In this document: piece after piece, positions 8,232 to 31,245 of the stretch | Layout: every line of letters starts with the position of its first letter | Position numbering within the stretch: the stretch's first letter is position 1 | Assembly (NCBI GenBank): GCA_012727915.1 | Contig: JAAYGD010000005.1 | Coordinates: forward strand, 1-36,356 | DNA length: 36,356 nt | DNA from: Mycoplasmatota bacterium | GTDB lineage: Bacteria > Bacillota_I > Bacilli_A > RF39 > UBA660 | Reading direction: 5' to 3' | The notes under the pieces: model-generated | What the model was told of the DNA's origin: nothing | The model's database searches: none | Seen by the model: only the letters and a program-made list of their open reading frames with translations | Translations under genes and position numbers: made by a program

Positions 8232-8307
8232 TGGTGTCCCGTACAGAATTCGAATCTGTGACCCTTTGATTAAAAGTCAAATGCTCTACCAACTGAGCTA
8301 ACGGGAC
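8232..8307 (-). tRNA. tRNA-Lys (UUU)
   Basis: 76 nt, encoded ACCA, anticodon loop CTTTTAA gives UUU. Expected substrate for wobble U34 modification, to which the MnmL-MnmM fusion at 29803 may contribute. Confidence 0.97.
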
Positions 8308-8319
8308 ATGTATATAAAA

Positions 8320-8393
8320 TGGCTGCCTCGGCTAGGTTCGAACTAGCGATGTCAGAGTCAAAGTCTGATGCCTTACCACTTGGCTACGAGGCA
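8320..8393 (-). tRNA. tRNA-Gln (UUG)
   Basis: 74 nt, encoded GCCA, acceptor TGCCTCG/CGAGGCA with the U1-A72 pair typical of tRNA-Gln; anticodon loop CTTTGAC gives UUG. Confidence 0.97.
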
Positions 8394-29104: not shown

Positions 29105-29740
29105 TTATTTTAATTTATAAGCATCAAACATATATATTATATTACCTTTTGATACAAACTTATCTTCATATTCAGTAGTAATTATATCTCTAATATTTGA
29201 ATTGTGCAAATCTAAGTTAACCTCTTTAAATATATATCTATCCATAGACAATGTTTCTATAGAGAATTCAAACAGATTTCTATTATCAGTCTTTAATATT
29301 ATATGATTATTATTCTTAAATATACTATCATATATGTTTAAATAAACTTCACTAGTCAGTCTTCTTTTTGAATGTCTATCTTTATGCCAAGGATCAGAAA
29401 AATTTAAATAAATACAATCAATTTCACTATTAAATATATCCATTAATTCCAAAGCATCACAACTTATAATTTTTAAATTATTAATATTAACTTCATCTAT
29501 TTTTTTTATAGCTTTATATAAAACACTATCATATTTTTCTATTCCAATGTAATTTATATTGGGATTTTTTAATGCATTTTCTAATATAAATTTACCTTTA
29601 CCCATTCCAATTTCTAAATGTATTGGATTATTGTTATCAAATATTTTATTCCATTTACCTTTATATTCCTTGTAATTATTTACTATATACTTACTATTTT
29701 GAACTATTTCTTTAGCGCCTTTTATATTTCTTAATCTCAT
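29105..29740 (-). CDS. trmB: tRNA (guanine-N7-)-methyltransferase
   Basis: 211 aa, SAM-dependent enzyme that makes m7G46 in tRNA variable loops. Motif I HLEIGMGKGKF (about residues 41-51), the PNINYIGIEKYDSV acidic loop, and the TrmB signature YLNFSDPWHKDRHSKRRLT (about 115-133) with SDPWxKxRHxKRR are all intact. AAAGGAG precedes the ATG. It is divergent from the MnmL-MnmM fusion gene, another tRNA-modification gene, across a short intergenic region with opposed -10 boxes. Confidence 0.97.
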   Translation of the reverse strand: MRLRNIKGAKEIVQNSKYIVNNYKEYKGKWNKIFDNNNPIHLEIGMGKGKFILENALKNPNINYIGIEKYDSVLYKAIKKIDEVNINNLKIISCDALELMDIFNSEIDCIYLNFSDPWHKDRHSKRRLTSEVYLNIYDSIFKNNNHIILKTDNRNLFEFSIETLSMDRYIFKEVNLDLHNSNIRDIITTEYEDKFVSKGNIIYMFDAYKLK

Positions 29741-29802: not shown

Positions 29803-31245
29803 ATGTATAAATATTCATTAGATAACAAAAGATATCACACATTAAACTATCATTATTTTTCTATATTTAATAGCAAAGTATCTAAAATTAGTTTAAATGG
29901 TGGTTTTACGTGTCCAAATAGAGATGGGAAAGTAGCTGTAGGTGGTTGTATTTATTGTTCTAAGGACGCTAGCGGAGATTATGCAGGAAATGTAAATGAT
30001 GATATAAAAGACCAATTTGAAAATATAAAAAAAATAATAGATAAAAAATGGAACACAAATAAATATATTGCGTATTTTCAAGCAGGAACTAATACGTACG
30101 CTGATATTAATAAATTAAAAGATTTATATGAAAAAGCATTGAGTATTCCAAATGTAGTTGGTTTAAGTATAGCAACAAGACCAGATTCAATAGAAGATAA
30201 TGTCTTAGAATATTTAATAGAAATAAATAAAAGAACATATTTAACTATAGAGTTAGGTCTTCAAACCATTCACGAAAAAACTTCTCAATTAATTAATAGA
30301 GGTCATGATTTAAAATGCTTTATAGATTGTGTTAATAAATTAAGAAAACACAATATTAATGTTGTAGTTCATATTATTAATGGTTTACCTTATGAAACAA
30401 AAGATATGATGATAGATACAGTTAAATTTCTAAATACTATGGATATTCAAGGCATAAAAATACATATGCTTCATGTATTAAAAAATACTGAATTAGAAAA
30501 AATGTATAATAAAGAAAAATTTAAAATATTATCTTTAAAAGAATATGTAAGTATAGTATGCGATCAATTAGAGTATTTAAAAGATAATATAGTAATACAT
30601 AGAATAACTGGAGATCCTAAAGAAGAAGATTTAATTGAACCTTTATGGTTAACCAAGAAATTCTCGGTTTTAAATGAAATAGATAAGGAAATGGAAATAA
30701 GAGGAACATATCAAGGATTTAATAAAACTATATTAAATAGATTTGATTTAATTATTAATAAATTATTAAAAAATAATGATATTGTTGTAGATGCCACAAT
30801 TGGTAACGGAAAAGATACATTAAAACTTGCAAATATTGTTACTAAAGGTTTTGTATTTGGTTTTGATATTCAAAAGGAAGCACTTAAAAATACAAAAAAG
30901 TTATTAAAAGATAATAATATTACTAATTATAAATTATTTAATATCTCTCACGAATATATATTTAATAAATTAATGAATTATGAGAATAAAATTAGTTTAA
31001 TAATATTTAATCTTGGTTATTTACCTAATGGTGATAAAAGTATAATTACAAATCATATAACAACACTAAAAGCTATAGATGAATCAATAAAATTATTAAA
31101 TAATAAAGGTTCTATATTAATTATAGTATACCCTCATAAAGAAGGAAAAAAAGAAGGACGATTAATAAAAAAGAAATACAAATGTAAAACATTCAGAAAT
31201 ACTGATAACATTAATGCTCCTTATTTAATAGAAATAAAAAAGTAA
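29803..31245 (+). CDS. Fusion of YtqA-type radical SAM (MnmL) and YtqB-type methyltransferase (MnmM)
   Basis: 480 aa in one frame. Residues 1 to about 305 are a TIGR01212/YtqA radical SAM protein: FTCPNRDGKVAVGGCIYC gives Cys37, Cys49 and Cys52 for the 4Fe-4S cluster, then SIATRPDSI, LTIELGLQT and IHMLHVLKNT. Residues about 310-480 are a YtqB-type SAM methyltransferase: VVDATIGNGKDTLKLA near 328-343, FDIQKEAL, IIFNLGYLPNGDK and a C-terminal Lys-rich end. In Bacillus and Streptococcus these are separate neighbouring genes; YtqB (MnmM) methylates nm5(s2)U34 and YtqA (MnmL) is linked to the preceding step from cmnm5(s2)U, as I recall recent work. The fusion would mirror bifunctional MnmC. GGTGAT precedes the ATG. 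Confidence 0.92.
   Translation: MYKYSLDNKRYHTLNYHYFSIFNSKVSKISLNGGFTCPNRDGKVAVGGCIYCSKDASGDYAGNVNDDIKDQFENIKKIIDKKWNTNKYIAYFQAGTNTYADINKLKDLYEKALSIPNVVGLSIATRPDSIEDNVLEYLIEINKRTYLTIELGLQTIHEKTSQLINRGHDLKCFIDCVNKLRKHNINVVVHIINGLPYETKDMMIDTVKFLNTMDIQGIKIHMLHVLKNTELEKMYNKEKFKILSLKEYVSIVCDQLEYLKDNIVIHRITGDPKEEDLIEPLWLTKKFSVLNEIDKEMEIRGTYQGFNKTILNRFDLIINKLLKNNDIVVDATIGNGKDTLKLANIVTKGFVFGFDIQKEALKNTKKLLKDNNITNYKLFNISHEYIFNKLMNYENKISLIIFNLGYLPNGDKSIITNHITTLKAIDESIKLLNNKGSILIIVYPHKEGKKEGRLIKKKYKCKTFRNTDNINAPYLIEIKK

Follow-up and report, generated by a model that had tools for sequence, protein, structure and literature searches.

A natural MnmL–MnmM gene fusion, a probable bifunctional tRNA wobble-uridine enzyme, patchily distributed in a family of uncultured Bacilli

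Does a single long open reading frame of an uncultured Mycoplasmatota bacterium encode a natural fusion of the tRNA-modifying proteins MnmL and MnmM, and could the two halves of such a protein act in succession on the wobble uridine? The frame lies in a window of 36,356 nucleotides (the whole stretch of DNA analysed; contig JAAYGD010000005.1). A first-pass annotation of this DNA had read it as an uninterrupted union of a complete radical-SAM domain with a complete methyltransferase domain. It proposed that the chain couples the last two steps of mnm5s2U synthesis as a "convergent MnmC," with two tRNAs encoded in the window as candidate substrates. The features that bear on this reading are listed below (bsMnmM, the B. 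subtilis protein).

29803..31245, plus strand: MnmL–MnmM fusion gene, 480 aa, a single open frame with a full-length counterpart in 26 other family genomes sampled
29830..30717, plus strand: MnmL/YtqA radical-SAM half, residues 10–305 (TIGR01212)
29911..29958, plus strand: radical-SAM cysteine motif C37-X11-C49-X2-C52 (from the sequence; Cys motif in 27/27 fused homologues)
30706..30735, plus strand: linker-free junction TYQGFNKTIL (same junction in all fused homologues)
30733..31242, plus strand: MnmM/YtqB methyltransferase half, residues 311–480 (NF053511; solved relatives 8h0s, 8h1a and 4pon)
30790..30819, plus strand: SAM-binding motif DATIGNGKDT, residues 330–339, including the equivalent of bsMnmM D34
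31006..31038, plus strand: substrate-pocket motif FNLGYLPNGDK, with the equivalents of bsMnmM N101, Y104 and K110 by alignment (roles from PMC9976899)
31126..31146, plus strand: VYPHKEG, with the counterparts of bsMnmM Y141 and H144 spaced one residue closer
8232..8307, minus strand: tRNA-Lys(UUU), candidate substrate (ARAGORN)
8320..8393, minus strand: tRNA-Gln(UUG), candidate substrate (ARAGORN)

The frame runs for 480 codons from ATG to TAA with zero internal stops, and the three cysteines and the SAM-binding motif lie where they had been reported. Both domain identities hold at the equivalog level. The NCBIfam model for MnmL/YtqA, TIGR01212, matches residues 10–305 at 372 bits against a curated cut-off of 180, and that for MnmM/YtqB, NF053511, matches residues 311–458 at 158 bits against a cut-off of 135. 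Pfam assignments (Radical_SAM, Radical_SAM_C, and rRNA_methylase) agree, and the solved YtqB/MnmM structures 8h0s and 8h1a match the second half of the protein. An AlphaFold model of the fusion, built on a 4-sequence alignment, has a mean pLDDT of 69, with low values in the methyltransferase half. The host assembly is fragmented (76 contigs), but the possibility that a missed stop or frameshift near residue 305 joined two genes is refuted to near certainty by the same fusion, with the same zero-linker, stop-free junction, in 26 other genomes of the family from 21 other genera. An internal start for a separate MnmM was likewise rejected as a general device; the methionine that precedes the junction is leucine in the other 26 fused proteins. 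Adjoining the fusion gene in divergent orientation is a gene for TrmB, the tRNA m7G46 methyltransferase (29105–29740, minus strand).

The host genome (873 kb, 94% complete) holds the partners that such a protein would need. Its single MnmL and single MnmM both lie inside the fusion frame, and no further match to either over the cut-off was found in this genome. MnmE (424 bits), MnmG (816 bits), and MnmA (431 bits) each score over their cut-offs. The FAD oxidoreductase model of MnmC(o), TIGR03197, has no over-cut-off match in the host or in any of the 98 family genomes to which the search extended, an absence that the first-pass reading had called for, and the two candidate tRNAs it named are indeed encoded in the window. 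MnmM has been shown to methylate nm5s2U at U34 in B. subtilis and S. aureus and recognizes U33-U34-U35 (PMC9976899). A 2025 review places MnmL beside MnmC for nm5s2U (PMC12548931), and from that literature we infer that MnmL itself performs the cmnm5 to nm5 step. By this scheme, MnmE and MnmG would place cmnm5 on U34 of tRNA-Lys, -Gln, and -Glu, with the 2-thio group supplied by MnmA. The radical-SAM half would then participate in the conversion of cmnm5(s2)U to nm5(s2)U, and the C-terminal SAM-dependent half would methylate the amine to give mnm5(s2)U. For the fusion chain we infer both the reactions and their order, and the proposed MnmL–MnmM route to mnm5(s2)U is well supported by sequence.

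The fusion is natural and patchily distributed. Its full-length form occurs in 27 of 193 host-family genomes, spread over 22 genera, and in 40 of the 385 genomes of an order sample. Across 295 genomes sampled phylum-wide, a comparison of fused and split architectures found full-length fusions in the host family alone. Outside it, mnmL and mnmM are split and often neighbors, 13–68 nt apart in tblastn terms; an Acholeplasma contig has them in different frames with a 20-nt overlap. Adjacent or overlapping genes of this kind are a natural precursor from which the fusion could easily arise. In the alignment of the 27 fused proteins, the MnmL ending TYQG runs directly, with no linker, into the MnmM sequence FNxSILNxV, and unfused MnmL proteins terminate a few residues past YQG. 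Several genera (g9, g169, g203, and g223 among them) hold both fused and unfused genomes. In one genome of genus g180 (G353, L055), an otherwise complete fused gene is interrupted in frame by a TAG at codon 6, well away from the junction; a start further downstream may be used, or the gene may have been disrupted only recently.

MnmM over the cut-off is confined to exactly the 27 fusion genomes, and no free MnmM gene over the cut-off was found in the host genome or in the 193 family genomes. About 143 of the 193 (a count from the survey table) combine a strong MnmL match with no MnmM over the cut-off. Most of these MnmL-only genomes are estimated to be >85% complete; missing contigs, therefore, cannot account for the absence. 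The flanks of 124 unfused mnmL loci were read and contain no mnmM (0/124), and an all-frame profile search of the flanks gave no MnmM trace downstream of unfused mnmL at E 0.1. In MnmL-only organisms, the predicted endpoint is nm5(s2)U unless an unrecognized methyltransferase takes over. The prevalence among relatives of MnmL without MnmM complicates the suggestion that the fusion serves to couple the two last steps. About 23 of the 193 genomes are without any strong MnmL match, so that the family spans three states: fused, MnmL-only, and neither.

Traces of a former methyltransferase half are visible in a few unfused proteins. Two weak in-frame relics emerged from reading the tails, followed by separate tests, rather than from the flank profile search. 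These tails continue past TYQG for 110 residues in one lineage (L062, G393) and for 124 residues in another (L096, G425). Their alignments to MnmM give z values of 13 and 8, respectively, with 0 of 300 shuffled sequences scoring as high, and profile E values as single targets of 1e-5 and 2e-4 (0.35 and 0.13 for the reversed tails). Both are without the SAM, FNLGYLP, and YPGH motifs. An apparent long match with six stops in another genome (G413) was read through as a further candidate and holds no MnmM. The 110-residue tail belongs to a genus other than g252, the genus of the longer one; its MnmL is sister to that of the fused genome G411, near which its genome also falls in the marker tree. 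In G346, sister to the window genome, the protein ends TYQGFNLE-stop, which looks like a stub.

The longer tail is shared by two species of genus g252, G425 (L096:1812-2184) and G579 (L251), as a common 124-residue, motif-less extension. The two copies differ at 36 synonymous and 10 nonsynonymous positions (dN/dS 0.043, p ~3e-20), and no alternative-frame ORF covering the whole tail was found. Such strong purifying selection on a dead domain suggests a retained, non-catalytic role. A tentative extension of this idea, which we hold to be possible but favor less than its opposite, is that the MnmM half has often been discarded to leave MnmL and that in at least one genus it now persists as a conserved dead pseudo-methyltransferase with a role in the service of MnmL, such as holding the anticodon loop.

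How intact, then, is the methyltransferase half of the window protein? The residues essential in bsMnmM, D34, N101, Y104, K110, Y141, and H144 (PMC9976899), all have equivalents in it. K11 of bsMnmM contacts U33, and the K11E substitution leaves almost no activity in B. subtilis (PMC9976899); the equivalent in the window is Asp315, which is not basic, at a position that reads as K, R, or H in 24 of the 27 aligned fused proteins. This change affects one site, in an N-terminal segment of weak conservation, and on its own does not define the family, yet it lowers confidence in full activity, and an Asp at a position essential in bsMnmM further complicates the coupling proposal. The Gly143 equivalent is also missing from the YHGH loop, and the segment that contains Q163, a residue contributed as a contact by the partner protomer of the bsMnmM homodimer (PMC9976899), is deleted in the window protein and shortened across the fused family. 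Together, these three departures could mean that the window's own methyltransferase is weak or altered. In a same-family case, a fused MnmM (G319, L039) has its H144 loop replaced by PDESNKNTTGK, and G447, of the same genus, has a normal YPGHKEG.

These departures can be taken further, to a reading in which the fusion is real but the methyltransferase half of the window protein is impaired, acting mainly as an anticodon-loop binding module or beginning to decay, with nm5(s2)U as the product. The NF053511 score, lowest but one of the 27 fused proteins, points the same way, as do the mere stub in the sister genome and the motif-less relics kept in two other lineages. We nonetheless consider this reading unlikely. 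The SAM motif and the equivalents of N101, Y104, K110, Y141, and H144 are intact, the Gly deletion is common to four other fused proteins, and the rate of the window's MnmM half is not accelerated relative to the other fused proteins (residual −0.039). The genus of the window is represented by one genome, so dN/dS was taken from 11 within-clade pairs of other fused relatives. Both halves are under purifying selection in these pairs, with values of 0.03–0.11 for the MnmL half and, where calculable, 0.09–0.32 for the MnmM half, always well below 1 and usually two to four times the MnmL-half value.

The history of the fusion can be followed in the separate trees of its parts. In a tree with 13 free MnmM proteins, the MnmM halves of the 27 fusions group as a single clade with support of 100/100, and their monophyly implies a single fusion event. 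Fused sequences are scattered over the MnmL tree, which requires at least 16 changes when these are unordered, 8 of them forced by well-supported branches. The N- and C-terminal halves of MnmL give an equal number of changes, on which ground an exchange of the C-terminal part alone was rejected. A marker tree of RNase Y repeats the mixing of fused and unfused genomes, and many of its local groups match those of the MnmL tree; its 28 genomes were picked to include mixed neighbors, and its change count is not a random-sample figure. Fused and unfused genomes group together in both trees in the case of the window genome (G000) with G346 and G429, of G391 with G455, and of G473 with G254. This mixing, in both trees and within genera, favors inheritance in place with repeated loss, and recurrent loss of the methyltransferase half would account for the patchy distribution of the fusion.

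The strongest rival holds that the fused gene spread by transfer and recombination, replacing or extending a resident mnmL, rather than descending from an ancestral fusion with many losses. A single gain on the weakly resolved MnmL tree would cost ~32 losses against 16 unordered changes, and distances in MnmL and MnmM correlate at only 0.35. Unfused tails, moreover, resemble outgroup tails, and since most of them are without a MnmM trace, some of the patchiness may reflect transfer. As the main cause, however, transfer appears improbable, if somewhat less so than impairment of the window's methyltransferase. Fused genes group with their unfused neighbors in the MnmL and RNase Y trees, the two halves of MnmL agree in number of changes, and the two in-frame relics and the stub are direct signs of loss. 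Eight of nine well-supported MnmM clades are free of conflict with supported MnmL clades, the ninth showing one marginal conflict. AU tests of MnmL against MnmM topologies carry no information on this point, because even the N- and C-terminal halves of MnmL reject one another. Loss, rather than transfer, is the main cause of the patchiness in the reading adopted here.

In the preferred reading, which we regard as probable with good confidence, the window gene would encode a bifunctional tRNA wobble-uridine enzyme of the MnmL–MnmM pathway. A single fusion of neighboring mnmL and mnmM genes would have taken place no later than the common ancestor of the host family of uncultured Bacilli; a minority of lineages would have kept the fusion since, and the methyltransferase half appears to have been lost in many others, whose modification would be expected to end at nm5(s2)U. 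Within one family there is a natural series: the fused protein, a lone MnmL, an MnmL that carries a dead MnmM relic, and the absence of both. A comparison of wobble nucleosides over that series could test whether nm5(s2)U is a product of MnmL and whether U34 methylation is dispensable, and the one-chain enzyme would be a convenient target for reconstituting both steps together.

A fusion of this kind is probably already known, as the abstract of Jaroch et al. 2024 reportedly mentions fusion proteins in the MnmLM pathway. What seems new is that over-cut-off MnmM is confined to the fusion in the host family, that this half has apparently been lost repeatedly, and that a dead relic of it is conserved. 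The closest known system is formed by MnmL (YtqA) and MnmM (YtqB) of B. subtilis and other Gram-positive bacteria, to which both domains match at the equivalog level; MnmE, MnmG, and MnmA are present and MnmC is absent there, as in the host genome. The host differs in having one linker-free chain instead of two genes, and the fused family differs from bsMnmM in a shorter C-terminal segment, the region of the Q163 dimer contact. E. coli MnmC resembles the fusion as a two-domain single chain proposed for the same last steps, cmnm5 to nm5 to mnm5. It contains, in contrast, an FAD oxidoreductase domain, and its methyltransferase is poorly homologous to MnmM (PMC9976899). The label "convergent MnmC" is fair, therefore, as an analogy and fails as a statement of membership: the fusion would work like MnmC from outside the MnmC family, with a radical-SAM domain in place of the FAD domain.
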